Of a stretch of DNA of 64,000 bases, positions 963-32,379 are shown piece by piece. The stretch comes from a virus. The translations under genes were made by a program, and so were the position numbers. Within the stretch, counting starts at the first letter, position 1, and each line of letters opens with the position of its first letter. The notes beneath the pieces were generated by a model. That model ran no database searches, had not been told where the DNA came from, and saw only the letters and a program-made list of their open reading frames with translations. Where the stretch lies: the IMG/VR virus record IMGVR_UViG_3300028173_000007, positions 1 through 64,000 of that record. One strand, given 5' to 3'.

Positions 963-3900
963 CGGCCCGTGACCTGCTCCGCTCGGCCCGCGAGGCCCTC
1001 TCCGCGGCCGAGTGGCTCCCCGTGCCCGCCCGTGTCGGTGCGGCCCTCTGGCGGCGCCAGTCGGCGACGCTGGCCAAGGGCGCCGGGCACAAGTACGTCC
1101 GCCGCGAGCGGAACCCGAACCCCCCGCCCAAATGGCGCTACTACTACCGGGCGGCCAGCGCGGCCCGCGGCCTCCGCGCCGAGCTCTACGCGGGCGAGAA
1201 GTTCCAGATCGACCACGACGGCCAGGCGGGGCACTTCGAGGTGGTGGAGCTCAGCGGCGACCGGGTGACGGTGCGGCACGACGAGTCCGGCGAGCTCGTC
1301 ACGGTGACGCGGGCGGCCCTCGAAGCCATGTTCCGAGACCACCACGCGGAGGCCATCGACGCGCACCGCGGCCGGCTCTCGCGGGACCTCACCGCGGCGA
1401 AGAAGCACGGCGCCAGTCGGCGCCAGGTGGCCCGGCTCGAAGATGAGGCCCGCCGCCACGGCCACGAAGACCTCGTGAAGCCGAAGCAACGGACCCGAAG
1501 CCCCGAGGGCATCCCGCGCACCGAGGCGCCGGATCTCCTGCTCGTCGGGTGCGTCAAGACGAAGGCGGCGCACGACGAACGGGTGCCCGTGCGCGACCTG
1601 TACCGCTCCCGCACATGGAACCGCCGGCGGGACTACGCCGAAGCCCGCGAGCTCGTCGAGGGCCCCCCCTGGGCGGTCGTGTCGGCCGGCCTGGGCGTGG
1701 TGGACCCTGACCGGCAAACGAAGCGGTACGACGCCCAGGTGAAAGACCTCAAGGGGCCAGCGCGGGCGAAGTGGCTCAAGCGCGTGCGCGGCGCCTTGAT
1801 CGGGAAGCTCTACCGAGGGGAACGGCCCGACACGCCCCGGCGCATCGAGATCATCGCCGGCGCCGACTATGTGAAGGCCGTTCGGGAGGCCCTCGAAGGG
1901 CTCCCCGTCGAGGTGGTGCAGCCCCTCGAAGGCGTGGGGCTCACGCACCAAGAACAGTGGCTCCAGGCCCAGGCCCAGGAGCTCAAGGCGCAACATGAGA
2001 CGTTGGCAGAGCAGGCCAACCGGGAGTCGCCAGGCCGGCCCGAGTGGCACGGCCGCCTATCGCACCTGGGCCTATCGTGGGCCGATTGGGAGGTGCGCCA
2101 CGACTCCGCGGCCGACGCCGTGCGGCGCATCCTGCACCTGCGCCAGAGCTCCGACGGCTGGCACTTCGAGGCGGCCGCCGCGAAGGCCCTCGGTGAGACG
2201 CTCACCGACTACGCCGGCTATCCGGTCGAAATGGAGGACGAAGACGGCGAGTCGTGGCTTGAGGTCGAGCCCGAAGAACTCCCGTCGTGGTTCGGCCGGC
2301 CCGACTGGACGCCCGAGTTTGCCGCGAAGGTCTACCGGCGCGTGGTCGAGCACATCGACGACTGGACGCCCGACGAGGACGACCACCCCGACGGCGTGCC
2401 CGAGTGGGCCGAGGGCTTTCTTCACGAGGTCATGGCCGACGAGCTCGAAACGCCGCCCGACGGCCTGCGCTTGTCGATGGTGTCGAAGGACGAAGCCCGC
2501 CGGTTCATCACGAAGCATCATTCCGCCATGCCGAAGTGGAACCATCGCGGGGTGGTTTTCACCCTGGGCGTGCGTGACCCGCGGGGGCGGCTCGTCGCCG
2601 TAGCCACCGCGAACACCCCGACGGCGCGCGCCTGGCGAGACCACCCGCGCGAACTCGACACGGGGCGCATCCTGCCCGGCCACAACGTGTTGGAGCTCAC
2701 CCGCGTTGCCAGCGACGGCAGCGCGAAGGGCGCCGCGTCCATGCTGGCCCGGCGCGTGGTCGCCCTCGGTGAGAAGGCGAAGCGCGGCGACCCGACCGCC
2801 CCCCACCTCGTGATCACCTATCAACTGGCCAGCGAGAACGGCACCACCTACCGGGCCCTCCGCGACGTGGGCCTGCGCCCCGTCGAGCTCACGAAGGGGC
2901 GCAAGGGCGCCCGCAGGGCCGGCGGCCAGGTCGACGAGAACGACGCGGCGAAGCTCCCGAAACTGCGGTGGGAGGCCGGCCCGGCGGCCATGCCGGCCCG
3001 CTGGGACCTGCTCAACGCCATGAACGCGCGGCGTGAGCACCCCGAGCAACTGGCGACCCTGTTTGCGGCCGAGCGGGCAAACGTCGCCCTCGACGACTAC
3101 TTCGCCAGCGGCTCGAACCACGAAGGCGAGATCCGAGGCTTCCACCGCCTCGGGATCAACCCCGGCGTTGCCGCCGACCGGCTCAATGACCGCAACGTCC
3201 ACGAGCTCAAGCAACTTGCGGGGACCGGCCGCAAGGTCTTCGTGGACTCTGGCGCCTTCGGTGAAATCGACTTCAATGTCCCGAAGAAGGGGCAGAAGGG
3301 CCCGCCGCGGCCGGACCTGCCCATCGGGGCGCCGTTCGTGGTGAAGCCGATCACAGACGACGAGTGGCAAAAGCGGCTGGGCCGCTATCACGAGCTCGCC
3401 CAGGTCCTCGGCGGGCAAATGTACGCCGTCGCGCCCGACAAGGTGGCGCACCAGTCGGAGACCCTCGAACGGCTGGCCAGGTACGCGCCCCAGGTGCGCG
3501 AGATCGCCAAGCTCGGCGCGCACGTCATGGTGCCGATGCAGAAGGGCCAACTAGCCATGCCGGACTTCGCCCAGGTGGCCGCGAAGCGCCTCGGGATGAA
3601 GCCGGACGCCCTCATCTGGGCAATCCCCATGAAAAAGGACGCGACCACCCTCGACGAGCTCGAAGACTTTGTGCGCGAGGCGAAGCCCGGCCGCGTTCAC
3701 CTGCTCGGGGTGGGGCCCGACTCGAAGGCCTACCCGGCGATCCGCGCCATGTTCGACCGGGTGGCCCCCGGCACGGCGCTCACCCTCGACAGCGTGAAGA
3801 TCACCGCGGCCGTGGGTCGCGACGGCACCACGCCGGACGGCAAGCCCAAGGCCCGCGCGCTCACCGCCGCGCAAGACAGGGTGCGGGAGGCTATCGAGGC

Positions 3901-4339: not shown

Positions 4340-4415
4340 GGTGCAGGTCCCCAACCGGACGCCGGGGACGGGGCCGCACTCGGGTCGTGTCGCGGTCCCG
4401 CCCCCGGTGCCCATC

Positions 4416-4424
4416 TGATAGGAT
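4416..4424 (+). promoter_or_regulatory. Putative extended -10 promoter element
   Basis: TGATAGGAT lies in the 103-base gap upstream of the gene at 4443, which has a good GGAGG Shine-Dalgarno (4434-4438). The same TGnTAG(G/A)(A/G)T pattern occurs at 16922, 22530 and 62695 upstream of other genes. No convincing -35 box is seen, so it would act as an extended -10. Confidence 0.4.
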
Positions 4425-4442
4425 GCGGCCACCGGAGGACCT

Positions 4443-5354
4443 ATGCGGCCGCTACCCCTCGACCATCCCGTGCGTGTGACCGAGGACGCGACGCCCGACG
4501 CCCGCGGCATCTTTCCAGGCCTCGGCGACGGCGGCCCGCCTCCCGTTCCGTTGTCGACCGTCCTCTCCCCGCTACGGGGAAGCGACCGGGCCGGCGCGAG
4601 GGCCGCCCTTGAGGCCCCGACGCGCGAAACCCTGGCCGACCTCCGCGGCGCCTACCGAGACGCCGGCCTGGCCGGGCCCAAGCTCGCCGCGGCCATGCAA
4701 TCGGCCGCGCGCTACATCGCCCACATGCGCCGGCGCAACCCACGGGGGCGCACCGAGCCCGATCACCTGCGGAAAGCGGCCTACTACGCCGGCGCGGAGG
4801 CCCTCGCGGCCAAGGTGGCGCGGGAGGTGGAGATCCCCGGCTTCATCGGCCGAGTCGTGTGGATGGCCCAGGCGCGCGACCTCCGCAAAGGGGCCGGCCA
4901 CAAGTACCTTCGCCGCGTGAAGGGGGCGAACGGGAAATGGCGGTACTTCTACAAGGTGAGCGGCGGCCGCGGCCTCGGGCACGCTGACGAGTTCCACGTC
5001 GGCGCGAAGTTCGCCGGCGGCGGCGGTCACTTCGAGATCGTGAGCGAGTCCGGCGACATCGTGGAGATCCGCCACGACGAGACGGGGGGGACGCGCAGGC
5101 TGGACAAGGCGGCCCTCTCCGAGCTCCTGCGAAAGCACCACGTCGAAATCGACACCGAGGGTTTCAGCTACTACGTTGGGCGCCTCGGGCCAGCCGACGC
5201 CTATCCAGGCACGGCCGGCGCCGCCGCGGCGGCGCGCTTCCACGGGCTCGACTATCACGAGCATGGAGCGCCCGACGTGCATCCACGACGGCGCGGCCGC
5301 GGGCAGGTGGCCGCGGCTGACGGACTACTGGCCAAGGCCAAGGGGGCAGCATGA
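4443..5354 (+). CDS. Module-only KGAGHKY protein without effector domain
   Basis: 303 residues. ATG at 4443 has GGAGG 4 bases upstream. Residues about 60-135 are helical and Ala/Arg-rich. Residues about 149-240 are the shared module (KGAGHKYLRRVKGANGKWR, GHFEIV, RHDETGG). The tail of about 60 residues is low-complexity with no recognised catalytic motif. Across RVKGANGKWRYFY the nucleotide sequence is almost identical to the next gene (4917-4952 against 5501-5536), which points to recent duplication of the module. The stop overlaps the next ATG (ATGA at 5351). It may be a structural or adaptor version of the module, or the remnant of a larger polyvalent gene. Function unknown. Confidence 0.7.
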   Translation: MRPLPLDHPVRVTEDATPDARGIFPGLGDGGPPPVPLSTVLSPLRGSDRAGARAALEAPTRETLADLRGAYRDAGLAGPKLAAAMQSAARYIAHMRRRNPRGRTEPDHLRKAAYYAGAEALAAKVAREVEIPGFIGRVVWMAQARDLRKGAGHKYLRRVKGANGKWRYFYKVSGGRGLGHADEFHVGAKFAGGGGHFEIVSESGDIVEIRHDETGGTRRLDKAALSELLRKHHVEIDTEGFSYYVGRLGPADAYPGTAGAAAAARFHGLDYHEHGAPDVHPRRRGRGQVAAADGLLAKAKGAA

Positions 5355-8300
5355 GCACGGACCTGATCACGCGAGCCGCGGCCCTCCTGGGGCGCGTGCG
5401 CGGCCACCTCGACGAGATCCCCGAGGCCGCCGGCGTGCTCCTGTGGGCCCGCCAGTCGGGCGAGCTCGTGAAGGGCGCCGGCCACAAGTACGTCCGGCGG
5501 GTGAAGGGCGCGAACGGGAAATGGCGGTACTTCTACGACGTGACGGGGGGCCACGGTGCCGCGCACCACGCAGAGATCCACCTCGGCGCGAAGTTCAAGG
5601 TTGAGCACGAGGGCAAGGCCGGCCACTACGAGGTGACGAAGGAAGACGGCGGGTGGGTGACCATCCGGCACGACGAGACGGGACACGAGGCCAAGGTCAA
5701 GAAGACCACCGTTCAAACCATGATCAAGCGCCAGCACGCGGAGCTATTCGCGGCGCACCGCGAGCGCACCGCGCGAGACGTGAAGGCGGCGAAGAAGTAC
5801 GGCGCCAGCGCGAAGCAGAAAGCCCGCCTGGCGGCGCACGCGAAGAAGTACGGGCACCACGACCTCGCCAACGAACTCACCGACACGGCCGCGCCCGATC
5901 ACGCCGGCGAATACGGGCGTCACGCGGAGCGAGCTCGCCACCACCACGACGAGGCCAGCAAGGCCACGCCCGGCACCCCCGAGCACAAGAAGCACCGCGC
6001 GGCCAGCCTGGCCCACGAGAAGGCGCGCGAGGCGCATAGCCGAGCCATCGGTGACACCGAGGCCTCCGCGGGCGCCTTCGAGGCCTCGAAGGCCGCGGAC
6101 GCACTCACAGTCGAGCACCCCGAAGTCCACGCGGCCCGCCGAGCCCTCGAAGCACACGAGCGGAAACGTCAACAGGTCTCCGACCGCATGTACCGGCGAA
6201 CGAAGGCGGGCAGCGTCTCCACCGGCGCCCGTGCCGCCTACGACCTCAAGATGGGGCAGCTAGTCGAGCAGGAAGGCCACCTCCGCGCGGCCCTCGCCGC
6301 GGCCGAGGACAAGGCCAAGCGCGGGCCCGACGGCGAGCTCACCACCGACGAGCTCGCCCAGCGCCGCGCCGCGGCCGAGGCCTCGGCGCTCAAGCGCCGG
6401 GGGACCGGGAAGCCCGACGAGCCCGACAACGTGGTGCAGTTCCCGAAGCCCGAGCCGAAGCCCGAGCCCGAGTCGACCCGACCCGACCCGGCCCTACTCG
6501 CCCCGCTGGCCGACAAACTCGTCTCGCAACTGCTCCCCGGCATGAAGGGGCACGCGAAGCGCGCCGAGCTCCTGGCCATCGCCGCCGAGCACCTGGCGAA
6601 CATGGTCGGGCAAGAGCCCTCCGAGGAAACGGCGCAGGCCCTCGCGGCCGCCCTCACGACGAAGGCGCGCGAGCTCTCCGCGTCCAACGTGGTGCGCCTG
6701 GGCGGCCTGGGCGGCCGGAAGACGAAGCAGGAGAAGGCCGAAGCCTGGATGCGAGACGCGGCGGCGAAGCAGCGCGCAGGCCTGCGAGACGGCAAGCCGG
6801 GGCACCGCATCCACTACACCGGCGACCGGGCCAACAGCCCGCGCAACGGCGAGGTGATCGCCGCGTTCCCCGGTCACTACCGGGTGAAGTGGGACGACGG
6901 CACCGAAGGCAACGTCGAGCGGATCGGGGTGCGGGGCTGGGATAACGCCGGCGCCCGCTTCCATTGGGAGGACGAGAACCCGAGCGGCGACAGGAGCCCC
7001 GAGGCTATCGAGGAAGGCAAGCGGCAAGCGGTGGCCCACCGGGAGGCCGCCGACAAGGTGGCAGCGGCAGAGAAGGCCGAGCAGGACCGGAAGCACGCGG
7101 GGTGGCACAAGCCCGCCGACCGCACCGAGGCGTCCAAGCGGCTCAAGGCCGCGTTGCAGAAGCTCTACCCCGACGGCCAGTGGAGCGTGACCGGGGGGAA
7201 GGGGACCGGCTACGGGTGGCTCAGCATCAACGGCACCTCTGAGGCCGAGGGGAAGCTGCGCGACGAGCACCGCATTATCACGAGTGTTTCCAGCGGCAGT
7301 CGTGATTCCACCGTGCGGGACCTCGAAGAAGCGTCGGGGATCTTCACCCCCGGCGAGGGCCTCGCGCCGGGCAGCGTGGCCAGGAAGCACGCCGACAAGG
7401 CCGCAGCCGAGGCCGCAAGGCGCGAGGGCGCCGGCACCACGCGCCACGTCGGCCAGGTGGTCACCATCGGATCCAACCGCCGGCGCTACGTCGTGGTGAG
7501 CTCCGAGCAGGTGGGGTCCAGCCCGCCCCGCTACAACTTGTCCGCCCTCTCGGGCGGGATGCGGGGCTCGGGGCCGTCCTCGGTGTCCGCCGACGACCTC
7601 ATCCCCCACGCCGACCAGCGGATCACCTTCGACGGGGCCCAGGCGGCCGACCGCCGGGCCCGCGCGCTCCGCTCGCTGGCGCTCAACAGCAACGCCGACC
7701 CCGACACAAAGCAGCGGGTCCGGCTGGCGGCGAGCTCGGGGGGCGCGGTCCTCTCCCCGGCCGAGCTCGCCCAGCGCAAGGCCGCCGCCGACGCCGCGGC
7801 CCTCAAGCGCACGAAGGCGCCCGAGGTCCCCCCGGTGAAGCCCCCGGTGAAGCCCCCGGTGAAGCCCCCGGTGAAGCCCCCGCAAAGCGACTCGGGCCGG
7901 TCGGACGCTGACAAGCCCTCTCCCCAACCGGCGGCCCAGCGTCCGGCCGGCTTTTCTGCCCCCGTCGCTTTCACCGGCGAGACCCGCGAGAGCGTGACGA
8001 AGAAGCGCGGAAACACCGTCTGGAGCGTGCCCCACGCGGGGAGCATCCCCGACGCGCAGTTCACGGCCATGAAGGACGCCGCGCGGGAGCAGAAGGGCTA
8101 TTACCTGCGCGGCCAGGGCTTCACGTTCCGCGACCCCGAACACGCCCGGCAATTCGTCGCGGCCTGGGGCGCCGGTGACGGTGCGGTCCCGACGACGACG
8201 CCCGACGCGGACGGGAAGCGCCGCGCCAGGGCAGATCGGGCGAAGAAGCGAACGAAACCCGACGGCTTCGACGCGGCCGAGGGCGCCGGCGAGGGCTGGC

Positions 8301-11741: not shown

Positions 11742-11770
11742 CACCTGAGCTTTCAGGATGTGCCCGCTGT

Positions 11771-12016: not shown

Positions 12017-12018
12017 CC

Positions 12019-14954: not shown

Positions 14955-14961
14955 GGACGCT

Positions 14962-16644
14962 ATGACCCGCCGAGAGCAACGGATCGCGCGCTTCCGCAAG
15001 GCCTGGGGCCGCGACGACCTACGGAAATCCGACGTGGCCCGTGGTGGCCGCTACGTCTACCGGGTGAAGAAGGGCAAGGGCTGGCACTACGTCTACCCCG
15101 AGGACCTCCAGCACCACGCCAGGCCGCACAGCGAGCCCGAGCCGCAGACCCACCGCCATGAGCACGGGGACCTGCGCGAAGACCTCAAGGCCGACGAGCT
15201 CGCCCGCATGGGCGCGAAGATGGGCGGCGCCAGGCTGGACCGGGAGAACCACGACTCGAAGGGGAACCCGATCCTCGTGCCCGTGCGCGACCCGCACCAC
15301 GAGTGGAACAGCCTTCGTGAGAAGATCAGCGCGCGGATCGGCAACGTGGGAGACCACCCCGACGCGCTGGCGCGTGAGGCGGACTGGAAGAACGCGGAGG
15401 CCTCGACGCCGGCCGATCTCGTGAAGCTGGCCGAGGCCACCGCGCCGCACTACATGGACTGGTGTCGCGGGATTGCCAAGGCCGTTCCGGCGGCCGCGGC
15501 CTACGCGGGCGAGGGCGACCAGTACGCCACAAAGACCCTCAAGAGCCTGACGCGAAAGGTGACCTCGAAGGCCGAGCGGCTCGTGGATCGCGGCAGCTTC
15601 ACCGACCACGCGGCGGCCGTGGCGCACGTCTGCAACGACCAGATCGGGGATTGCCTGCGCGCGTCCCTGCTCGTCGACCACGCCGAGGACGTGAGCAAGA
15701 TCGTGGCGTCCATGCGGACGCACGCGAAGGCCATCGGCGGGGACGTGCTCGTCGAGAACAAGTGGACGAACGGCGAGCGGGGCGCCTACTGCGCCGTTCA
15801 CGCCTGGGTGCAGTTCCCCACGCCCGACGGCGGCCACATGCAGGCCGAGCTCCAGATTCACCCGCGCGCCATCCTCGGCGCGAAGGAGAAGATGCACCTC
15901 ATCTACGACGTGACCCGCGAAAACGACTTCAAGGGGGACCAGCGCGCCTACGACTGGAGCTCGAAGCTGACCTTCGCCGCGGGCATGGCCCGAGTGGCTG
16001 GCGCGGAGCACCCGCACACGCGCAACCAGCGCGAGGCCAACGCCCACCACGCCGACCGCGCCGACCTGCACGGCTACCACGCCGAGGAAAGCGCCCACCC
16101 CGACGACCGGGCGCTCCACGCGAAGGCGGCCGGTCTACACGCCCAGGCCGCCGCCCAGGCCTCGAACCTGCACGGGGCCGGGCACGCCGAGGCCGAGGCC
16201 GCAGCGTTCAGCGCGCGCGCGGCGGGGCAGGTCGCCAACTACGTCCCCGAGCACCGCACCGCGGCCGCCGAGCATGGGAAGGCCGGGCAGGGCGCCGGCC
16301 ACCAAGACGCGATGGCCGCTCACCAACAGGCGATGGCCGCCCACCTGGCCGGCGACGAGAATGCGGCGGGGCTCTCGCACCGCGCCAAGGCTATGTCCGC
16401 GGCCCTGCACTCCCGCGACCACGACACGGCCCACAAGTACGGCGTTCACAACCACAACCGGACGGCCGGGCACCACGACGAGGCCGGGATCAAGCTCAAG
16501 GGCCAGGAAGCCCGCGTTCACCGAGACGCGGCCCAGGCCCATCGGGCCGCGGCCCATGCCCACAAGCGAGGCGACGCCCGCGCCGGGTCACTGTCCCGCG
16601 CCGCCATCGCGGCCACCGGCCGCGCGGGCCAGCACATCGGGTGA
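14962..16644 (+). CDS. Polyvalent-type protein with RelA/SpoT-like domain and His/Ala-rich tail
   Basis: 560 residues, ATG 14962 preceded by TGAGGACGCT. Residues about 27-52 carry a degenerate form of the shared head motif (GGRYVYRVKKGKGWHYVY). Residues about 203-303 resemble the RelA/SpoT nucleotidyltransferase fold: ERLVDRGSF, IGDCLRASLLVD, ENKWTNGERGAYCAVHAWV and MQAELQIHPRAI match the D-x-R-A, K-N and E-x-Q-x-H pattern. Related small domains synthesise (p)ppGpp or pyrophosphorylate tRNA (toxSAS). The C-terminal third is repetitive HxA/HHA-rich helix. Alternative: a distant nucleotidyltransferase without alarmone activity. Its place between two KGAGHKY proteins supports membership of the same cargo set. 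Confidence 0.6.
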   Translation: MTRREQRIARFRKAWGRDDLRKSDVARGGRYVYRVKKGKGWHYVYPEDLQHHARPHSEPEPQTHRHEHGDLREDLKADELARMGAKMGGARLDRENHDSKGNPILVPVRDPHHEWNSLREKISARIGNVGDHPDALAREADWKNAEASTPADLVKLAEATAPHYMDWCRGIAKAVPAAAAYAGEGDQYATKTLKSLTRKVTSKAERLVDRGSFTDHAAAVAHVCNDQIGDCLRASLLVDHAEDVSKIVASMRTHAKAIGGDVLVENKWTNGERGAYCAVHAWVQFPTPDGGHMQAELQIHPRAILGAKEKMHLIYDVTRENDFKGDQRAYDWSSKLTFAAGMARVAGAEHPHTRNQREANAHHADRADLHGYHAEESAHPDDRALHAKAAGLHAQAAAQASNLHGAGHAEAEAAAFSARAAGQVANYVPEHRTAAAEHGKAGQGAGHQDAMAAHQQAMAAHLAGDENAAGLSHRAKAMSAALHSRDHDTAHKYGVHNHNRTAGHHDEAGIKLKGQEARVHRDAAQAHRAAAHAHKRGDARAGSLSRAAIAATGRAGQHIG

Positions 16645-16697
16645 TCTCGACTGGACCCCTTGACGGGTGTCCGGTATCCTATGAGTGGAGGTGAACC

Positions 16698-16901: not shown

Positions 16902-16921
16902 CGCGCCCCGCTGGCGCCCCG

Positions 16922-16930
16922 TGGTAGGAT
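16922..16930 (+). promoter_or_regulatory. Putative extended -10 element overlapping a start codon
   Basis: TGGTAGGAT matches the motif at 4416, 22530 and 62695. It overlaps the ATG at 16929. If it is a real -10, transcription would begin near 16936 and translation would use the GTG at 16938, nearly leaderless. No -35 is evident. Confidence 0.35.
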
Positions 16931-19727
16931 GCCGCCCGTGGACACACCGACCCGAGTAGCCCGAGCTCGGGCCCGCGCGCAGCTTGCCCCGGCCCCTTCC
17001 CGTGAGCTCCGCGCCCAGGCCTACCGCGCCTCGCTGGTGAAGGGCGCCGGGCACAAGTACGTCCGGCGCACCCCCAATCCCAACGCCCCCCCGAAATGGC
17101 GGTACGACTACCAGCACCGCAACTTCAACGGGCGCGGCTCGGCCGAGAAGGTCGACGCGGTGTCCCGACGCCATATCACCGAGGGCGCGAAGGTCGCAGA
17201 CGGGAAGGGCGCAGGGCATTGGGAGGTGCGAGAGCTCGAAGGTGGGGGGGTCGAGCTCGTCCACGACGAGACCGGCGAGCGCAAGGCGTTCGACAACGCC
17301 TACAGCGCCGCGCGCCACCTCAACGAAGCGCACGCCCCCCTCACGAGCGAGGCCACGAAGGCCCGCCGCGCGCGCCGGGTGCGCGAGTGCAAGATCGCCG
17401 CTCGCCAGGCGGCCCAGGCGCACCGAGACTTCGAGAAGGCCCCGTCGGTGAAGGGGCTTCGCAAGTGCGCGGCCGGCTGGGCGGCGGCCCTCAACCTCGC
17501 GCGCGCTGGCGCGCTGGATTGGGAGGACCTCTATCGGTGGTTTCCGAGCACCGTCGAGCCGCCCGCCAGCCCCGCGGAACTCGGGCGCGAGCTCGCGGAG
17601 CTCCGCGCGGAGATCGCCCTGTTCGGCAGCGCCCGGCCGTGGTCGGCATCCGAGGTGCTCCAGCACCGGCACCCCGACCGGATCAAGAAGGCCGTTCGGT
17701 TCCGCTACCTCTACCGCCTGGCCGACGGCCTGGGCGGGGCGTGGCAACAGGACACGCAAGCGGAGGACCGGCACAACAGGTGGCCGCCCGCGTGGAACGG
17801 GAAGTACCTCCGCGGCACCTGGGATGGGGTGCCATCGCTTGCGCGAAGTGTCACGAAGCCGCCGACCGCTCGGAAGGTCGCCGCCGCGCTCCGCGGCAGC
17901 AACGCCGCAAAGGACATCGGCCGCAACACTTGGATCGTCGTCGGCGCCAACTTCGAGAAGCTCCCCGACGACGCCACGGATCACGAGCGGGAGGTGGCCC
18001 GGCTGGCCCGCGAGCTCATGGCCCAGCACAAGGGCTACATCGCCGGGGTGGACGTGTCGGAGTCCCTGCCGACGGGTGAGTATGAGCTCGGCGCCGCCGC
18101 CCGAGCGTTGCACATCGACTCGACGGTCCCCGTCGAGAAGATGCGGCCCGAGGCGCTGGCGCCGCCGGCGCCTGTGACGCTCGCCGCCTTGTTCGAGACG
18201 GCCCAGGAGAAGCGGCGAACGCTCGGGGTGGACGATACGCCGCTTGAATGGCCCCCCGGCGCAGACCCTCAGATGGCAGTCGGGGAGCTCATCGGGGCCC
18301 GAGGCATGGTCACCATGCCGACGAGCATGGCTATCGCGGCCCTCAACGCAGGTCGCGCCCAGGCCGCCGAGCAGGTGCGCGCGAAGCACGCGCAGTCCTG
18401 GGCGCCGGTCCAGGCGAAGATCGCCGCCGCGCTCGCCGCGGTGGGCGAGCTCCCCGGCACGAAGGCCGATCACCTGACAGACGCGCTCATCGAGCAGACG
18501 GGGCTATCACGGGCCGAGGTGGCCACGGCCGCGGCCTACGCCAAGGCCGAAACGCGAGTAGTCGCGGGGCGGGTCGGCCGGCTCGAAGGTGAAGCGTCGG
18601 AGGTCTACTCGAAGCTCTATCACGGCGAAATGAAGGAGGCCGGGGCCGCCGTCGAAGAAGCCTTGACTGAGGATCACGAGTGGATGCTCAAACAGGATCC
18701 CGTCGCGACGTTATGGATGGTGGCGCCCATGCTCAAGACGGACAACGGCGGCCCTCTGTCCAAGGCCCTCGGGCCTGAGATCGCCCAGCGGGCGACAGCG
18801 GCCTACGACGCCGGCCTGGCGGCGCGCGACCGGGAGGTGAAGGCTCGCAAGGCCTCGCGCGAGGCCCGTGTAGGGCCCAGCGAGGCCCGCAAGGTGTGGG
18901 CCGAGTGGTTCCCCGGCGAGAAGATGCCGAAGCCCGAGGCCTGGCGGCTCGACGGGGCCCAGGCCGACGCCTTGGGTCTCGACGCCGCGGCGATGCGCGA
19001 GGTGAGGCGCCGCGTGCGCGAGAAGGCATCGAGTGAGGACCTCGCGCATATCCGCGAAGCCCTCGGGATCAAGGGCGACCCGGCGGCCGGCCTGGCCAGC
19101 CTCGACACGGGCACACCGGAGCAGGTGCGCGCCTCGTGGCGCACGGGCGCTGGGGTCAAGAAGACCCCCGAAGAATTCCGCGCCGAGCCACTAGACCGAT
19201 TCCAGAGCTACGACACGCAGACGGACCCTGGGAGGTTGGCGCACCTGTTCGCCAACGTGGCGCAGTCGGTCGTCCCCCGGAACGTGCGGATCGACTTGTA
19301 CCGGGGTGAATTCCGAGCGCACGCCGGGCACGAGGGCATCATCCGGCAGGACATGGGCCCGGCTGGAGCCGTGAACGCAAGAACGCTGTGGCACGAGTAC
19401 GGACATCAAATCGAGTTCGGAAACAAGGCCATCGGTGCGGCAACTAAGGCCATGCTCCGCGAGCGATGCGCTGGCGAATCAGCGACCCACCTCGGCGCCG
19501 GGTATGAGGCCTACGAGGTGGCCTACGAGGACGAGTTCGCGAGCCGGTACACCGCGAAGCACTACGACCACGTTGGAACCTCAGAGGTGTTGAGCATGGG
19601 CATTGACGCCTACCTTCACGACCCGGCCGAGCTCCAACGGGACGATCCCATGCTCTTTGGCTTCGTGCTGGCCGTCGTCTCGGGAGCGTTCGGCCCCGCC
19701 ACGGGTCACTTCAAGGCCAGGTCGTGA
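16929..19727 (+). CDS. Polyvalent protein: KGAGHKY module and HExxH metallopeptidase
   Basis: 932 residues from ATG 16929; GTG 16938 is an alternative start (neither has a good ribosome-binding site). The shared module begins with KGAGHKY at 38-44 and is slightly diverged (GHWEV, VHDETGE). The middle (about 140-700) is mostly helical and unrecognised. The C-terminus has a zinc-peptidase motif HEYGH at 822-826 (TLWHEYGHQIEF). About 45 residues later it reads YEDEFASRYTAKHY, followed by SEVLSMGIDAYLHDP, in the arrangement seen in metallopeptidase domains attached to phage head-morphogenesis and polyvalent proteins. Likely cleaves host or virion proteins; whether it acts in maturation or after injection is unknown. 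The stop overlaps the next gene (GTGA at 19724). Confidence 0.75.
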   Translation: MPPVDTPTRVARARARAQLAPAPSRELRAQAYRASLVKGAGHKYVRRTPNPNAPPKWRYDYQHRNFNGRGSAEKVDAVSRRHITEGAKVADGKGAGHWEVRELEGGGVELVHDETGERKAFDNAYSAARHLNEAHAPLTSEATKARRARRVRECKIAARQAAQAHRDFEKAPSVKGLRKCAAGWAAALNLARAGALDWEDLYRWFPSTVEPPASPAELGRELAELRAEIALFGSARPWSASEVLQHRHPDRIKKAVRFRYLYRLADGLGGAWQQDTQAEDRHNRWPPAWNGKYLRGTWDGVPSLARSVTKPPTARKVAAALRGSNAAKDIGRNTWIVVGANFEKLPDDATDHEREVARLARELMAQHKGYIAGVDVSESLPTGEYELGAAARALHIDSTVPVEKMRPEALAPPAPVTLAALFETAQEKRRTLGVDDTPLEWPPGADPQMAVGELIGARGMVTMPTSMAIAALNAGRAQAAEQVRAKHAQSWAPVQAKIAAALAAVGELPGTKADHLTDALIEQTGLSRAEVATAAAYAKAETRVVAGRVGRLEGEASEVYSKLYHGEMKEAGAAVEEALTEDHEWMLKQDPVATLWMVAPMLKTDNGGPLSKALGPEIAQRATAAYDAGLAARDREVKARKASREARVGPSEARKVWAEWFPGEKMPKPEAWRLDGAQADALGLDAAAMREVRRRVREKASSEDLAHIREALGIKGDPAAGLASLDTGTPEQVRASWRTGAGVKKTPEEFRAEPLDRFQSYDTQTDPGRLAHLFANVAQSVVPRNVRIDLYRGEFRAHAGHEGIIRQDMGPAGAVNARTLWHEYGHQIEFGNKAIGAATKAMLRERCAGESATHLGAGYEAYEVAYEDEFASRYTAKHYDHVGTSEVLSMGIDAYLHDPAELQRDDPMLFGFVLAVVSGAFGPATGHFKARS

Positions 19728-20725
19728 GGTTCCGCGCGACGGTCACCGCCCCAGGCGGCGGGGAGCCCCACGAGTTCGCCGCCGGCGAGGGTCTCACCAT
19801 GACCCCGAGCCCCGAGACCGTGGGCCTGTGGGTGGGCCGCGTTCAACACCGTTCAGGCCGGATGCCTGGGGCCTACCGAGGCTTCGACCCCGAGGACCCG
19901 CGCCAGGTGGCCGACGCGGCCGACTTCCTTCGGTGGAAGGGCTGGCGCGTCGAGGTCCACGAGGACACGGTTCCGCTTCTCCCGAAGCCCCCCGGCTTCG
20001 ACAGGCGCCCCGAGGCCGAGCGCCCGGCCGGTGAAGGCTTCACGCTGGCCGAACTCGGCCAGTCGCACCTTGCGGGCGAGCTCGCAGCCGAGCGAGTCGC
20101 CGCGGCGCGCGCCGAGCTCGCGCAGCCTGCGGCCAACTTGGCGAAGGCCCACCCCATCGGGCCGCCACCCAAGCGCAACAGAAAGACCTACCCGTACCAG
20201 GGGACCATTACCTATGCGGGGATCATCCCGATCCGCGTAGAGAACCGGGCCGGGTCGATGCGCCGCGGCGTGGACGGCGACGGGCGCAAGTGGGCCACGA
20301 AGATGCACGACCACTACGGGGAGGTCGTCGGCACCCTGGGCGTGGATGGTGACCCCGTGGACGTGTTCGTCGGGCCGCTGGAGCACGCACCCTGGGCGTA
20401 TGTAGTCCATGCCACCGACCCCCGCACGGGGCGCTACGACGAGTGCAAGATCATGATGGGCTATGGCACCAAGCGAGAGGCGGCGGCGGCCTTCCGGGGG
20501 CACTACGACGGGCCCGGCTTCTACGGGGCGATCCGCAAGGTGGCGTTGACGGAACTTCTCGCGTGGCTTCGTGATCCGAAGAATCGAGGTCAAAAGGTCA
20601 CGGCCGGTTCCGCACTTTCAAAGGGCTGTGAGGTAGAGTCCCCCGGCGAGGGTCGAGCCGCCCGCGCAGAACGCGCGCAGAAGCGCGCCCACACGCAGGC
20701 CGCGCCGAAGCGCGGGGAGGGGTAG
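19724..20725 (+). CDS. Inorganic-pyrophosphatase-like (InPase) domain protein
   Basis: 333 residues, GTG start coupled to the upstream stop. Residues about 155-285 match the pyrophosphatase-like domain known from MuF and polyvalent proteins: IPIRVENRAGSMRRGVDGDG, TLGVDGDPVDVFVGP, DPRTGRYDECKIMMGY and a closing helix LTELLAWLRD. The Asp cluster in GVDGDPVDVFVG would bind metal. The N-terminal 100 residues are unrecognised and the C-terminus is basic and disordered (AERAQKRAHTQAAPKR). It lacks the KGAGHKY module but sits directly before the portal gene. Probable substrate is pyrophosphate or a nucleotide; activity untested. Confidence 0.75.
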   Translation: MRFRATVTAPGGGEPHEFAAGEGLTMTPSPETVGLWVGRVQHRSGRMPGAYRGFDPEDPRQVADAADFLRWKGWRVEVHEDTVPLLPKPPGFDRRPEAERPAGEGFTLAELGQSHLAGELAAERVAAARAELAQPAANLAKAHPIGPPPKRNRKTYPYQGTITYAGIIPIRVENRAGSMRRGVDGDGRKWATKMHDHYGEVVGTLGVDGDPVDVFVGPLEHAPWAYVVHATDPRTGRYDECKIMMGYGTKREAAAAFRGHYDGPGFYGAIRKVALTELLAWLRDPKNRGQKVTAGSALSKGCEVESPGEGRAARAERAQKRAHTQAAPKRGEG

Positions 20726-20727
20726 CC

Positions 20728-22575
20728 GTGGCGAGGTGGTGGGAGCGAGTCGGGGAGAGCGCCGGGGCGGCGCTGGGTGACGGCCTGGCCGCGATGGGCG
20801 AGGGCATGGCCGCGGTGAATGAGGGCATGAGCAAGGCCCGCCGCCGAGACTCCGCGCAGACGGCAGAGAGCAAGGGCCAGGACACCGCCGCGGCGCGCGC
20901 GGTGGCCACGCCCAGGCGCGGCGGACTCGCAGAAGCGAGGGCCGCAGGGGGGAAGGGCGCAGGCCTGGAAGGGATCTTCACCGATCCCGAGCTCGAACTA
21001 TTCATGACGCGCACGCCGGGCGGGGACTACGCCGAGCGGCCGAGCGGCGTCGCGTGGGACGTGTTGAGGCGCATGGCGAAGACGCCGCCCATCGCGGCCG
21101 TCGGAAACACCATGTGCGATGGACTCGCCGAGTTCTGCACGCCCAGCGACAATCGACACCTGCCCGGCTTCCGCCTCCGCGTCCGCGGGAAGGATGCGCG
21201 GTACAGCCCCTCGAAGGCCGAGCGGGGGGCGCTCGACGAGGCGCAGGCGTTCCTCTACAACTGCGGCAACGTGGGCGACGTGGCCGAGCTCGTCCACCGG
21301 CCGACCCTCGAACAGTGCGTGCGCGCCGGCTTCTGGGATTCGTTCCGGTTTGACCAGTTCTGCGCCCAGGTAGAGCCGGCCGCGGGCTGGCGCCCAGGTG
21401 GCCGCTTCGAGGCGCACCGCTTCTATGCCTGGCCTGGCCACACGATGCGGCTCGCCATGCCGCCAGAGGACGGGTCTCGGCTCGCCGACGACGACTTCAA
21501 GGCAACGCGGTACGTCCAGATCGACCGCCACGATCAGGTGGTGGGATCGTTCAACGGCCAGCAGATGCTTTGGGGCACGATGCGCCCCATGACCGACATC
21601 GAGAACGCCGGCTATGGGTACTCGGTGTTGGAGCAGTTGGTAGACGTGCTCGCCGGGTGGTTATACGGCTACGGGTACAACAAAGCGTACTTCAAACAGG
21701 GCGCCAACGTGCGCGGCATCCTGCAATTCGACACCGAGCCGCCGGCGAAGCAACAGCGCCGTTTCGAGCGGTACTTTCACGCGCTGGTGTCGGGTGTTGG
21801 CAACGCACACAAGGTTCCTATCGCGTGGGGCGCGAAAGCTCAGTGGATCGGTCTCGGGCAGACGAACAAAGACATGGAGTTCAACCAGTGGATGGATTTT
21901 CTGACGAAGCTCCTATGTGCGATCTGCGGCATCGATCCCGCTGAAATCAACTTCACATACGGGAACAGCGGCCAGGGCTCCGCGATGGGCACGGCCTCGG
22001 CCGCAGAGAAGATCGAAGTGAGCCGCAACCGTTGGCTACGCCCCCGCGTGCGGAGCCTGTTCGAGTGGCTCAACAAGTGGGTAGTTTGGACCCGCTGGCC
22101 CGAGCTCGAAGCCGTCCCGACGGGGCTCAACGAGCGGAGCGAAGAAGCGGAGCAGGAGCGTTTGCTCAAGCTCGTGGAGAAGACGCACCACGTTGACGAG
22201 GTGCGCGCCATGATGGGCGACGGCCCGCTCCCGAAGAAGGACGCCCAGGAGACCCCCGGCGGCGTGATTCTAAATCAGGTGTGGCAGCAGGCCACCGCGC
22301 CCCAGCCCGAGGGCATGGGCGGCCCAGAGGGCGAGGGCGGCCCCGAGGGCGGCCCCGAGGGCGAAGGCCAGGGGGACGCCAGCGACGAAGACGTTGCGAA
22401 CGCCGAAGAAGCCTTGTTCGGTGGCGCCAAGGGCAAGCCCGACGACGGCGACGGCGACGGCGACGGCGACCCCTTCGACGAGAGCAAACTTGCAAAGAGC
22501 TTCGAGACGCGCCAGGCCAGAGCGGCCCGTGGTAGAGTGCGGGCGCGCGTGCAATTGAGACCACGGGAGGACTGA
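20728..22575 (+). CDS. Portal protein
   Basis: 615 residues, GTG 20728. The central region has features of tailed-phage portals: YGYSVLEQLVDVLAGWLYGYGYNKAYFKQGANVRGIL, a long helical stem segment and CGIDPAEINFTYGNSGQGSAMGTASA before the wing/crown region. The first 75 residues are Ala/Arg-rich. The C-terminus is acidic and repetitive (GPEGEGGPEGGPEGEG, DDGDGDGDGD) and then basic. The portal forms the dodecameric DNA-entry ring and recruits terminase. Its terminase is not in the window. The following two small genes and the MuF-like gene complete a head-assembly cluster. Confidence 0.85.
   Translation: MARWWERVGESAGAALGDGLAAMGEGMAAVNEGMSKARRRDSAQTAESKGQDTAAARAVATPRRGGLAEARAAGGKGAGLEGIFTDPELELFMTRTPGGDYAERPSGVAWDVLRRMAKTPPIAAVGNTMCDGLAEFCTPSDNRHLPGFRLRVRGKDARYSPSKAERGALDEAQAFLYNCGNVGDVAELVHRPTLEQCVRAGFWDSFRFDQFCAQVEPAAGWRPGGRFEAHRFYAWPGHTMRLAMPPEDGSRLADDDFKATRYVQIDRHDQVVGSFNGQQMLWGTMRPMTDIENAGYGYSVLEQLVDVLAGWLYGYGYNKAYFKQGANVRGILQFDTEPPAKQQRRFERYFHALVSGVGNAHKVPIAWGAKAQWIGLGQTNKDMEFNQWMDFLTKLLCAICGIDPAEINFTYGNSGQGSAMGTASAAEKIEVSRNRWLRPRVRSLFEWLNKWVVWTRWPELEAVPTGLNERSEEAEQERLLKLVEKTHHVDEVRAMMGDGPLPKKDAQETPGGVILNQVWQQATAPQPEGMGGPEGEGGPEGGPEGEGQGDASDEDVANAEEALFGGAKGKPDDGDGDGDGDPFDESKLAKSFETRQARAARGRVRARVQLRPRED
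22530..22538 (+). promoter_or_regulatory. Putative extended -10 element within 3' end of portal gene
   Basis: TGGTAGAGT, 42 bases before the ATG of the next small gene. It is a close variant of the element at 4416, 16922 and 62695. A related GGTAGAGT is at 20632-20639, upstream of the portal gene. No clear -35 is present. Confidence 0.3.
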
Positions 22576-22579
22576 CCAT

Positions 22580-23005: not shown

Positions 23006-23066
23006 CGGCTGGCGAGGCCATCAACACGGGTGAGCCGCCCCCGGCTGGCGGCCGGGAGGCGGGACC

Positions 23067-23477
23067 TTGGCCCTTGACCTGATCATGGACGTGAACGTCA
23101 CGGCGGCCAGCCGCCAGTCGGGCACGTCCGCGACGGCCGACGCCGAACGGGGCTTTGCCCCGGCGCGGCGCATCCGGCAGACGGTCTCCACCCTCACGCG
23201 ATCCGCCTTGCACGCACCGTTCGAGGTCGCAGCGGCCGAGAACCGGCAGATCGACTTGGGCAGCCTCACCGATCCGCGCTTCCTGTTCGTGGTGGTCTAC
23301 AGCGGCACGATCAAGGTTCGCACGTCCGGCGTCGCCGGCGAGGCCCTCTCCGTCTCCCCACCCGCCACCGGGCAGGTGGGTTTGTTCCTGATCACGGCGC
23401 CCGCGACGGGGCTGTGGCTGGAGAATGCGGGGACCGACCCCGTGCTGTGCGAGGTACTCGCCGCCGGCCTGGAGTAG
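23067..23477 (+). CDS. Small beta-rich virion-type protein
   Basis: 136 residues from TTG 23067, chosen because GGGAGG lies about 8 bases upstream; this ribosome-binding site decides the start. It is beta-rich (FLFVVVYSGTIKVRTSG, QVGLFLITAPATGLWLENAG). It belongs to the portal-MuF block and ends just before the next gene. A head decoration or accessory role is likely from context; no family is recognised. Confidence 0.5.
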   Translation: MALDLIMDVNVTAASRQSGTSATADAERGFAPARRIRQTVSTLTRSALHAPFEVAAAENRQIDLGSLTDPRFLFVVVYSGTIKVRTSGVAGEALSVSPPATGQVGLFLITAPATGLWLENAGTDPVLCEVLAAGLE

Positions 23478-23483
23478 CCGCCG

Positions 23484-24800
23484 GTGGAGCCTCTCACCCT
23501 CACCGTGGACGCCGCCCCCGGCGAGCTCGCCGCCCGGCTCCCCGAGGTGGTCGCGGCACTCCTGCGCACCGACCCCACGTCTACCCCGCGCATGGTCCGC
23601 GAGGCCACCGAGGCGCTCCACAAGGCGCAGTCGGAACCGGACTGGTGGCGGTGGCCCGTCGGCGCCGCCCTGACCGCTGCGGCCCGCGACGTGGCCATGA
23701 AGCGGGCCGAGCGGGTCAAGCGGCGGGTCTTCGAGGTGCTGGGGGTGCCCGAGCTCCAGAAGTCCGCCGCAGACGACCTGTGGCTCACCCCTGAGCGCCT
23801 GGCGCGGCTCCAGGCCGCGATCCGTGACGAGCACCTGGCGCTGGCCGTGGAGCTCTACGGCCCGACGGTGATCCCGGCCGACGAGCTCGCGCGGCTGCGG
23901 CTCGAAGGCGTGCTCACCGACTTGGACATCGAAGAAGCGCGCGGCCTGGGCGTGTTGGGCGTTGGCGTCCCCCTCGGCCACGGCATCCACGCCGACGAAG
24001 CCGCCGGTGAGCTCACCGCAGAAGAAGCCCGCGACTTGGCCGAAGACCTGGCCGCGACGTGGGACGGGTGGGACGACGAGCCCGAGCCCGAGCCCGAGCC
24101 CGGTGCAGACCCGCCGCCCCCGCCGGCTGACCCTCCCGCGGGTGTGGCCCCAGCGGCCCCCGCGGCGCCGGCGGGGGCACCTCTTACCGAGCGCCAGCGG
24201 GCGGCCCAGGCGGCCCGGCTGCGCGGAGGTGCGCAGATCGTCGGGCTGGGGAACCGGGTGGCCGCGGACCTGACGACCGTCGCTATCGACTCCACGGGGC
24301 CCGAGGCGCAGAAGCGCCGGCGGGCGGTGGCCGAGGCCATCGCCCAGGGCATCGAGACGGGCGCCAGCCGCTCAGACATTCGGCACGCGGTCGCGATGGC
24401 CCTCGGCGGGGACTACGCGCGCGACCTCGACCGCATCGTCAAGACCGAGCTCCACGCGGACATGCAGACCGGCCAGCGCGACGCCCTGCTCCACGAGGAA
24501 GGGCCCGACGTGCGCGTCGCGGTGACCCTCTCGCCGGGCGCGTGCCGCAACTGCCGGCGCCTGTACGGCGGCCAGTCGTTCAAGGCGGCCGACCTGCCCC
24601 TCCCCTCGGTCAACTTCCGGGTGAAGGCGGCCGACCGGGTGGCGTGCGTGCCGCCCGCGCACCCCAATTGCCAGTGCCATATGCGGTGGTTGCCGATGCG
24701 GTGGGGCGTGGATTCCGAGGGCCGGCCCGTGCCGCCCTCGAAGCTGGAAAAGAGTATCGAGCCGCGGCCGCGCTTCGTGCGGCGGCATAGGCCCAAGTGA
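23484..24800 (+). CDS. Mu gpF / SPP1 gp7-like minor head protein
   Basis: 438 residues, GTG 23484. The C-terminal third carries the hallmark of MuF-type head morphogenesis proteins: RIVKTELHADMQTGQRDALL, then a CRNCRRLYGG pair and HPNCQCHMRWLP. The middle has a Glu-Pro/Pro-Ala hinge (EPEPEPEPGADPPPPP) separating an N-terminal helical domain from the MuF core. MuF proteins are packaged in few copies near the portal, can be ejected with the DNA and are often fused to toxins. Here the toxin-like domains lie in separate neighbouring genes, and the stop is coupled (GTGA, 24797) to the 2114-residue polyvalent gene. Confidence 0.8.
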   Translation: MEPLTLTVDAAPGELAARLPEVVAALLRTDPTSTPRMVREATEALHKAQSEPDWWRWPVGAALTAAARDVAMKRAERVKRRVFEVLGVPELQKSAADDLWLTPERLARLQAAIRDEHLALAVELYGPTVIPADELARLRLEGVLTDLDIEEARGLGVLGVGVPLGHGIHADEAAGELTAEEARDLAEDLAATWDGWDDEPEPEPEPGADPPPPPADPPAGVAPAAPAAPAGAPLTERQRAAQAARLRGGAQIVGLGNRVAADLTTVAIDSTGPEAQKRRRAVAEAIAQGIETGASRSDIRHAVAMALGGDYARDLDRIVKTELHADMQTGQRDALLHEEGPDVRVAVTLSPGACRNCRRLYGGQSFKAADLPLPSVNFRVKAADRVACVPPAHPNCQCHMRWLPMRWGVDSEGRPVPPSKLEKSIEPRPRFVRRHRPK

Positions 24801-27800
24801 GGACCCCGATGGACCCGTTCGACACCCGAAGCCTTCGGTTCACCCGCCCCCTCCCGGTCGAGCTCACAAAGGGCATGGAGCCCGGCGATGAGTTCGTCCC
24901 GGTCTCGAAGTACCTCGGCGTGCTCCTGTGGGTCGGCCAGTCGGGCGAGCTCGTGAAGGGCGCCGGGCACAAGTACCTTCGGCGGGTGCCGGACGGGCGC
25001 GGCGGCTGGCGCTACTTCTACAACGTGGCCGGCGGCGGCGGCCTCGGCCACCACGACGAAATGCAGGCCGGCGCGAAGTTCAAGCTCGCGCACAACGGCC
25101 AGGCGGGGCACTTCGAGGTCCACGAGGATCACGGGGATCGCGTCACCATCCGGCACGACGAGAGCGGCCACGAGACGCGCGTCTCGAAGAAGGCGCTCCG
25201 CGCCATGCTCCACAAAGAGCACGCCCAGGCCGTCACGGCGCACACCGCGAAGGTCAAAGAGGATCTCGCCGCGGTGGCGAAGCACGGGACGGCGGGGCAG
25301 AAGAAGCGGCTACAGGCCCGCGCGGACAAGTACGGCCACACCCGGCACCTGCTCCGCGAGCAGGAGAAGCACGGGAAGACCGCCGAGGGTCACACCCGCA
25401 GCGGGCGGGAGATCCCCCACGTCGACTCCCACGGCGACGAGCGCGACGAGGCGACCGAGGATTGGGGCCAGGAGGACCACGACGACGCCGCGCGCCACCA
25501 CGCCGCGGCTGCGCGCGGCGCCGGCGCCGGCGCCGCCCACGTCAAGGCCGCCCACCTGGCCGCCGCCGCCCACCACCGCGAGGCCGCGTCCACGGTCCCG
25601 ATCAAGAAGCTCGACGAAGACGAGCGGGACCTTGCGCTCGACGTGATCGGCCGGCTGCGCCGCGAGATCGGGAAGCTCAAGAGCGGGCTCGAAGCCGGCG
25701 CGAAGGAAGAACAGCGGTTCGGCGGGCACTCGGTGTTCCGCACTCACCACGGGATGCACTCGTTCACGGCGCCCACCGGGGCCGACAAGGGCAAGATCGC
25801 GGAGGCCTGGATCACGTCGCACCTTGAGCGCGTCGGGCACGAGGCCATGAAGGAGGCCGCCGACAAGCACTATGGCGGCGAGAACGAAGACGCCCCCCAC
25901 GAGCACGGCATCCCCGAGAACGTACTTCGCGCCGTCCGCGCCACGCTGCGCCCCGAGGTGGTGAGCGCCTGGAGCATGGGCGGTATCAAGCTCATGGACG
26001 ACGGCCAGGCGCAGAAGAAGGCCGCAGCGGCGGCCAGCGCCACCGGGAAGCAGGCCGTGGCCGACAAGGCCAAGCGCGCCGAGGCGAAGAAGGCCCGCGC
26101 GGCCGAGAAGAAGGCCGCCCGCGCCGAGAAGGCGCGCGCCGAGGCGAAGCCCGAGGACGACCCGAAGCGGGGCCCCGACGGCGAGCTCACCGAGAAGGAG
26201 AAGGAACAGCGCCGCGAGAACGCGCGGCGCCGCAAGGGGACCGGGAAGCCCGACGAGCCGAAGAAGGGCCGCGCCCCGGCCTTCGACAATGAGACCTGGG
26301 CGAAGAAGTACGGGAAGCACGCGGAGAACGTCGAGGTCGTCGGCGGGCACATGACCGTATGGCAGATGGGCCAGAGCGGGAGCATGGGCACCCGCGGAAA
26401 CTGGTACGTCACCGCGCCCAACGGGAAGAACGTCGGCCGGGCGGCCAGCGCGGAGAAGGCGCGGGAGGTGGCCGAGCAGAAGGCCGCTCAGCACAAGCCG
26501 CTCGGCGCTGGCGAGGTGCTGGACGAGATCCGCAAGCGCGGGGGCCACGGCATCGCGGACGGGATGCACGCGGACGCGAAGGAACGCACCGAGGGCCACT
26601 ACACCGCCACGACGCACACCGGGAAGAAGATCCCCAAGGGCGGCCCAGGCGAGCACACCGAGGGCTGGAGCTCCGCGGAGCACTCCAGCGCGGCGGCCTG
26701 GCACAAGAAGCAGGAGGACGCCAAGCGAGCGGACCCGCGTTCAAGCCTCGAAGACGCGAACCACCACGGCCGCATGGCCGAAGCGCACCTCGGGGCCTAC
26801 ACGGCGATCCACGAGGGGCGGACGAAGGCGCGGAAGGCGAAGGACTTGGCCGCGCTCAAGGCCGACCCGAAGGCGAGGTTCCACGACGCCCTTGCGTCGA
26901 CCGGGTACGGCCCCGGCGGCCGGGGCTATGAGGCCGTGCGGGACTACATCGGCCTCGCCAACAGCCCCGAGGAAGCGGGCACCCTGGCGGCCGCCCTCGA
27001 CTACTCGGGAGAGGCGGGCGCGCGTAGCTTCGAGGCCCTGGCGGCCCGAGCTCTCAAGGTGTCCCCGGCCGAGCTCGTGACGCGCAAGCGCGCCCACGCA
27101 GCGGCCGGCGCGGCCGCCGGCGGCGCCAAGGGCGACGAGCCGAAGCGGGTCGGCGGGGAGCTCACCGAGAAGGAGAAGGAGCAGCGGCGGGAGAACGCGC
27201 GCCGGCGGCGCAAGTTCACCCCCATCGACCCGAAGAAGGCCGCAGTCCCCGAGCACCTCCGCGCGGGGACTGCGGCGCAGGTGGGCGAGAACATCGCGGC
27301 GAACGCCAAGCTCGCCAGCACCGACGACGAGCGACAGAACGTCCGCGATCACGTCTCGCGGCTACTCGCCGCGGGGACGATCACGTCCGAAGCCGGGGAG
27401 CGGGCGTACCTGGCCGCTGGGCTGACGAAGGACGGCGGATTCAAGGCGGCCGAGCCCGCCCCCAAGGCCGAGCCCGCCCCCAAGGGGCGGGAGGCCCGCC
27501 AGGCCGAACACAAGCGCCGAGGCGGCGAGGCGGCGACCGCTCACCAGGCGGTCGCCGACCACCAGAGCGCGTGGATCAAAGAGCAGGGCGGGTCCGCCAA
27601 GTTGCGCGAGCGCGGCATCCGGCGCATGGACCAGATCCCGGTGCCGGACGAGCTCAAGATGAAGCGCCAGAAGGCGCGGGATGCCGTTGCGGCGCACCAC
27701 CACGAGAACGGCGGCGCGGGCGGCTTCACGGCCGCGGCGATCAACGACGCGACCGCCTTTATCAAGCGCAGCGAGGCCAGCGGCGGCAACTTCGAGGTGC

Positions 27801-32377: not shown

Positions 32378-32379
32378 AC

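Follow-up and report, generated by a model that had tools for sequence, protein, structure and literature searches.

A recurrent KGAGHKY module as a candidate cleavable tag on head-linked effector proteins of a phage

We describe here a protein module, recognizable by the motif KGAGHKY, that recurs in proteins encoded by the first 64,000 bases (the window) of the IMG/VR virus record IMGVR_UViG_3300028173_000007, whose full length is 89,587 bases. That the module is shared by head-linked effector proteins which are otherwise unrelated is well supported. We propose, with a probability of roughly 0.6, that the KGAGHKY element is a cleavable tag marking the start of each unit in polyvalent-type effectors that are packaged into the phage head and injected into the host. 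The residues directly before GAGHKY read as the motif Φ-x-K/[GAS], where Φ is hydrophobic and the slash marks the proposed cut; this is a new observation. We infer that the prohead protease cuts before GAGHKY and that each effector, fused units included, matures with a β-hairpin at or near its N-terminus.

The KGAGHKY module and its predicted fold

Exactly six matches to KGAGHKY are present in the full record, and none to the reversed control pattern. The pattern search places them in the same six open reading frames that had been picked out in an earlier reading of the DNA made without database searches (the sequence-only reading; Table 1). The copies can be aligned over about 130 residues, in keeping with the 135 or so first estimated, and have 34-48% identity to the first copy. 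The reported motif set also holds: all six copies keep L-x-KGAGHKY-x-RR, WRY-x-Y, GH and HDE-x-G unchanged. The repeat of the module is far beyond chance. An iterated profile built from the six copies and their relatives matches each copy with expectation values (E) of 5e-28 to 1e-45, values that serve as a consistency check only because the copies are part of the model. A C-terminal helix rich in lysine and glycine, said to be frequent, is clear in four of the six, as K-[HY]-G with a doubled lysine in three, and is absent from the copies in the proteins starting at 4443 and 16929. The degenerate version noted in the protein starting at 14962 is indeed present, its hairpin reading GGRYVYRVKKGKGWHYVY.

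The predicted fold of the module opens with a β-hairpin, which an SH3/Tudor-like barrel and then helices follow. In an AlphaFold2 model made from a 40-row alignment (mean predicted local distance difference test score, pLDDT, 87; predicted template modelling score 0.75) the hairpin strands span residues 19-22 and 28-31, the barrel strands lie within residues 51-87 and helices follow; the first ten residues, upstream of the hairpin, have pLDDT below 50. The hairpin, with the consensus GAGHKY-[VIL]-[RK]R ... [WY]-x-Y-x-Y, is rich in basic and aromatic residues and is the most widely shared part of the module; the barrel is absent or different in many relatives. The best viral match of the module is a "DdrB-like domain-containing protein" from an uncultured phage (E 3e-6). 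Against the PDB the barrel gives weak Tudor/SH3 matches (best Foldseek E 0.11; best VIA Z 6.1, with a root-mean-square deviation of 2.4 over 58 residues), and as the scores are weak throughout we rejected the reading that it is a Tudor domain and functions as one. A likeness to the translocation-signal domain of F-plasmid TraI (4l0j, Z 4.5; 9f12, Z 4.7) was set aside because many unrelated folds score equally.

No family of Pfam, PHROGs or NCBIfam covers the module in the window proteins (the 24797 protein being outside the PHROGs scan), and an overlap with phrog_1619 in one other tagged protein (L090, residues 16-39, E 0.15) was too weak to use. With two modules as queries, tblastn of 50,697 phage records finds nothing, and tblastn of the module against a plasmid collection likewise gives no match. 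Sequence profiles of the module and of the protease find no match among PDB sequences, and a text search of open-licence PMC full text for the motif letters returns no paper. The loci L027, L030, L032 and L033 hold adjoining paralogues, several of them 471 residues long, with the module at each start.

The module had been described as always N-terminal, and this does not hold. The 4443 copy begins near residue 147 of 303 in the open reading frame as called. When positions are counted along stop-to-stop open reading frames, 19 of the 73 non-redundant hairpins, relatives included, lie beyond residue 250; gene calls in the relatives are mechanical. Eight proteins carry two or three hairpins each, at spacings of 334-1083 residues. 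Where the hairpin falls within the first 64 residues, the segment from ATG to the site has about 6-59 residues, and 11-14 in several proteins, counting ATG start codons only.

A lysine site before the hairpin

We scored the site as [LFIMWV]-x-K-[SAG] and related it to the 73 hairpins, a set that includes relatives. Members of this set are akin to one another, as are the head genes considered below, so the counts are not independent. A site lies within 5 residues before HKY in 60 of the 73 hairpins and within 14 residues upstream in 70, against a mean of 4.9 for random positions of the same proteins; it is found upstream of all 19 internal hairpins. These figures carry a search bias, as three of the patterns used to collect hairpins held K-G before HKY. 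Of the 27 hairpins that do not have the K-G string, 24 have a site, against a mean of 1.9 and at most 6 over 1000 random trials. For the other 46, which do have the string, the residue at -2, which was absent from all search patterns, is hydrophobic without exception. The sequence-only reading had made no mention of this hydrophobic residue two before the lysine, which ties the tag to other head proteins. Across 65 tagged proteins we counted 365 sites, 75 of them just before hairpins and 290 elsewhere against 291.1 expected; since the non-hairpin sites match expectation, the excess of sites sits at the hairpins.

The same site in head proteins

Within the window, the site is over-represented in the scaffold-position protein, the protease and the MuF-like protein (Table 1) and in the major coat protein, which has 4 sites against 1.4 expected. 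No excess is seen in 14 counted tail genes, with 8 against about 10 summed, the region near 51416 offering no usable open reading frame. The comparison was extended to 20 portal regions from 20 other records, where non-tag genes hold 490 sites and shuffling predicts 258.3, a 1.9-fold enrichment; these genes were sorted by a single pattern and may include degenerate hairpins. Three control motifs in the same regions give ratios of 0.92, 0.98 and 1.27. In ten distant regions from ten of the same records (148 genes) there are 77 sites against 78.8 expected, with the last control again at 1.29. Genes were called on one strand with a 90-residue threshold in the portal regions and on both strands with a 120-residue threshold in the distant ones. 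One protease row (L112) was left out as non-homologous; one "S78 gene" (L099, 0 sites and 0 expected) is probably a wrong open reading frame and was kept, together with its neighbor, in the lysine counts that follow. Around the 85 lysines of the seven proteins that come next after the protease, a hydrophobic residue at -2 is favored 2.61-fold, S/A/G at +1 2.33-fold and a hydrophobic residue at +2 2.31-fold; R, E, D and Q in the same seven proteins have no comparable neighbor preference.

Sites of this kind also occur at one known cut and at one probable cut in other phage heads. HK97 gp5 is cut at K103/S104 (PMC10275583). The HK97 record reads FNK/SL at this cut. In gp5 there are 5 sites where 1.6 are expected, and four of the five fall no later than residue 103. 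The herellevirus coat chain 9row_B (439 residues) begins SFQTGYG, and full-length 5lii_P has DVVK directly before this sequence; reading the start of the deposited chain as the mature N-terminus, we infer a cut here too. Φ-x-K/S stands at the HK97 cut and at the herellevirus chain start, and the tag sites match this type. Passages of papers on XM1, 7-7-1, phage 812, E217 and fRuSau02 give no cut sequence.

The protease of the window falls in phrog_1028 (E 9.3e-28), with a Pfam S78 match below cut-off, and the only PDB matches under E 0.001 to its model, whose quality is only fair (pLDDT 62), are two chains of T4 gp21. Pfam protease and MuF models match 10 and 9 of 29 records respectively, one each above cut-off. 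A related protease (G012) matches 609 records of cultured phages, mostly of Staphylococcus, Bacillus, Enterococcus and Listeria, and the two such records examined are Herelleviridae. Their scaffold-position proteins are packed with sites (L132:4702-5511, 14 against 1.3 expected; L131:3298-4305, 9 against 1.4), a density that points to one cut motif shared across this protease family. The Exiguobacterium phage EalM-132 has the same portal-protease-scaffold-coat gene order as the window. Unlike the window phage, HK97 and the herelleviruses have no tagged effectors that were matched in the tblastn search of phage records.

Linkage of the module to head genes

A PF04860 portal protein is encoded in 27 of 30 tag-bearing records, 26 of the matches being above the curated cut-off. 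The portal strand carries all 67 module copies in the 27 records, and all 61 in the 26 that remain once G026, which is nearly identical to the window, is removed. Late genes are commonly co-directed, and distance is therefore a better test than strand. Over the 13 records that reach 70 kb or more, copies lie a median 7,282 bases from the portal gene; block shifts give 24,455, and 3 of 10,000 shifts come as close. The portal-strand and portal-proximity data thus do not place the module mainly in non-structural contexts.

The module is also present in 3 of 282 Myxococcota genomes (E up to 1e-6). Two of the chromosomes (G024 and G231) have a single portal match, 5.5-7 kb from the module and on its strand, apart from one further weak partial match elsewhere in G024 (E 0.0025). 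The third genome (G274) has no portal match; the module found there probably corresponds to the copy on the 6,840-base contig of L035.

Cargo and relation to polyvalent proteins

The rest of each tagged protein differs, as had been stated from the six copies, and family scans of the window and its relatives confirm that the cargo is diverse. The 959 protein carries DUF6884 and a Mom/XF1762-like acetyltransferase and the 12447 protein a C5 DNA methylase. An HEYGH sequence near the C-terminus of the 16929 protein, read by eye, is zincin-like. No confident match outside the module was found for the 1850-residue 5351 protein in scans of family libraries, and a RelA/SpoT-like part of the 14962 protein and a TGT-like part of the 959 protein, both suggested on visual reading, found no support among PDB sequences and were dropped. 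In relatives, we scanned 51 of 59 collected tagged open reading frames (the eight shortest being left out) at E up to 1e-4. The cargo comprises ddrB-ParB (11), LPD1 (8), InPase (4), SNF2 (4) and PAPS reductase (3), with ADP-ribosyltransferase, RNA ligase and C5 methylase once each. Several unrelated activity domains can share one polypeptide, as in the 959 protein and in L060 (SNF2, helicase and LPD1), a make-up of at least two domains that is established for some tagged proteins rather than every one.

By domain content and by position beside virion genes, the tagged proteins belong to the phage polyvalent proteins described by Iyer et al. 2017 (PMC5512222). Phage polyvalent proteins have the same cargo (ddrB-ParB, LPD1, InPase) and likewise lie beside virion genes; in the window the only domain typical of the class is in the untagged InPase. 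Polyvalent proteins were predicted there to be packaged and injected, with processing by zincin-type metallopeptidases proposed. Unlike the present analysis, these passages contain no account of the hairpin or of a prohead-protease site before each unit.

Interpretation of the module as a cleavable tag

In our proposal the phage's own prohead protease would cut the Φ-x-K/[GAS] site during head maturation, leaving the hairpin, often followed by the small SH3-like barrel and helices, at the effector's mature N-terminus or close to it. The segment before the site would be a removable propeptide and may target the protein to the prohead, by analogy with T4 IPIII and P1 DarB (PMC9024508). Where effectors are fused in one open reading frame, the site before each hairpin would give separately tagged pieces. 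Because scaffold and coat sites occur without a hairpin, cutting would not require one, and because each unit keeps its hairpin this element probably acts later; after cutting, this basic and aromatic element could tether the effector to DNA or to an inner-head partner, or act as a handle for ejection. The module, its linkage to head genes, the excess of sites in genes around the portal and their place before hairpins are observations; cutting, packaging, ejection and a later role of the hairpin are proposed from them. A more specific version, in which the head protease slices fused polyproteins at Φ-x-K/G, the hairpin is the retention or ejection handle inside the capsid and the effectors are interchangeable modules behind one label, is a tentative possibility. 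The sequence-only reading had proposed a packaging or ejection tag, an idea that the data support in part. A shared module on head-linked effectors is what we find, although it also occurs inside proteins and may be no simple targeting peptide; since it starts at the apparent prohead-protease cut, the targeting part may be the short segment before KGAGHKY.

Parts of this scheme have counterparts. The capsid-targeting sequences described for T4 internal proteins and P1 DarB are N-terminal elements on inner-head proteins, as here, and a 30-residue stretch of DarB carries a reporter into the capsid (PMC9024508); as given in that source they differ in sequence from the module, which is one folded unit found on many unrelated cargoes and also internally. 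P1 DarA is cut by the P1 protease (PMC12810830) and ejected proteins of SPN3US lose N-terminal propeptides (PMC10052503), so that both are inner-head proteins losing an N-terminal propeptide in the way proposed here; the P3-P2-P1 motif reported for the SPN3US protease is different from the tag site.

Several observations weigh against the proposal. The tagged proteins overall are only 1.38-fold enriched in sites, with one control at 1.32, and the large ones of the window are at or below expectation (3 against 3.1 in the 959 protein, 3 against 5.8 in the 5351 protein and 5 against 8.9 in the 24797 protein). The portal protein of the window is not clearly enriched (2 against 1.5), nor are the portal protein (2 against 1.4) and protease (1 against 1.3) of HK97. 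Three hairpins have no site. At the tag P1' is mostly glycine (50 of 71) and P2' mostly alanine (38 of 71), whereas scaffold sites favor a hydrophobic P2'. Two module copies in one record (G009) are about 50 kb from the portal gene, and the hairpin was not found in the seven P1 proteins checked (Dar, portal and protease), the P1 coat gene being outside the stretches examined.

That the P2' preference differs between tag and scaffold would suit a reading in which Φ-x-K-[SAG] is a docking motif and is not cut, the scaffold, protease and effectors all binding one partner such as the coat or portal protein, with the hairpin and barrel strengthening the contact. Enrichment and spacing alone fit binding and cutting equally. 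However, the HK97 cut falls at exactly this kind of site, the herellevirus coat chain begins right after one and a head maturation protease is encoded in the record, and we consider docking unlikely. The module might instead act in the host cell, as an SH3/Tudor-like accessory domain that binds nucleic acid or protein and is needed after injection, with LxK forming part of the fold. The predicted barrel has Tudor/SH3-like matches and the hairpin is rich in basic and aromatic residues, but these matches are weak, the hairpin occurs without a canonical barrel and the stretch before it has no confident model. The distance from site to hairpin is moreover variable, as in LVK/GKKGEERPGHKY, a variation not expected of an element that only serves the fold, and this reading is rather unlikely.

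We regard it as improbable that the effectors are released by metallopeptidase domains within polyvalent proteins, with the tag merely marking unit borders. Zincin-type processing has been proposed for the class (PMC5512222) and HEYGH in the 16929 protein would fit it, but the motif is common to coat, scaffold and protease genes and to HK97 and herelleviruses. Least credible of all is that the shared start has no function and is a remnant of gene duplication and fusion. Tandem paralogues that start with the module do exist; yet the site is kept at variable spacing, and the histidine, tyrosine and paired tyrosines of the hairpin do not vary in two alignments, of 25 and 26 divergent proteins with unrelated cargo, a constancy partly built in by a selection pattern that held these residues.

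In few systems is it understood how phages select the proteins to be loaded and injected. If the hairpin and its site are a cleavable tag, the separation of large fused effectors would be explained, candidate injected effectors could be listed from sequence, those with unknown cargo included, and the tag would be a candidate address label for loading other proteins into phage heads. As the proposed cut follows a lysine, a position at which trypsin cuts too, it would tend to be masked in mass spectrometry of tryptic digests.

Gene neighborhood and further observations

In the window, the tagged genes flank the portal and MuF-like genes, and the protease, scaffold-position and coat genes follow (Table 1).

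Table 1. Tagged, head and associated genes of the window. Site counts are observed against expected; proposed cuts follow the lysine codon given.
Feature	Coordinates	Strand	Module or hairpin	KGAGHKY start	Proposed cut or site	Remarks
Tagged protein, 1126 residues	959..4339	+	about 1043-1441	1076	after K 1076-1078 (TLAK/GAGHKY)	
Tagged protein, 303 residues	4443..5354	+	about 4854-5183 (internal)	4887	after K 4887-4889 (DLRK/GAGHKY)	
Tagged protein, 1850 residues	5351..10903	+	about 5438-5833	5471	after K 5471-5473 (ELVK/GAGHKY)	
Tagged protein, 835 residues	12447..14954	+	about 12537-12935	12564	after K 12564-12566 (ELMK/GAGHKY)	
Degenerate-hairpin protein	14962..16644	+	hairpin about 15043-15096		LRK/S a few residues upstream	
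Tagged protein, 932 residues	16929..19727	+	about 17007-17435	17040	after K 17040-17042 (SLVK/GAGHKY)	
InPase, polyvalent kind	19724..20725	+			NLAK/AH before InPase domain	untagged
Portal protein	20728..22575	+				
MuF-like protein	23484..24800	+			3 against 0.8	below Pfam cut-off
Tagged protein, 2114 residues	24797..31141	+	about 24926-25318	24956	after K 24956-24958 (ELVK/GAGHKY)	
Head maturation (prohead) protease	31526..32377	+			4 against 0.7	proposed cutter
Scaffold-position protein	32197..33177	+			8 against 1.0	true start probably nearer 32370; no family match
Major coat protein	33253..34758	+			sites at residues 24 and 32	near N-terminus

The untagged InPase has its Φ-x-K/A site directly upstream of the catalytic domain, and this position makes a propeptide without a hairpin possible for this protein.

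The C-terminus of the 24797 protein (about 30380-31138) is β clamp-like, with a TIGR00663 match (E 2.9e-5) under the curated cut-off and matches to PDB clamps at E 0.025 and worse. A second tagged protein, from a different phage (L046:9857-11779), likewise has a sliding-clamp-like C-terminus. The two together suggest a clamp carried in the head, the matches in the window protein being weak.

Among other hairpin proteins, one has an RNA ligase domain (L080:5374-7227; phrog_562, E 2.4e-37; PF09511) and another a PAPS-reductase domain (L075:1806-4370; phrog_424, E 5e-32), a fold that is used in DNA phosphorothioation too.

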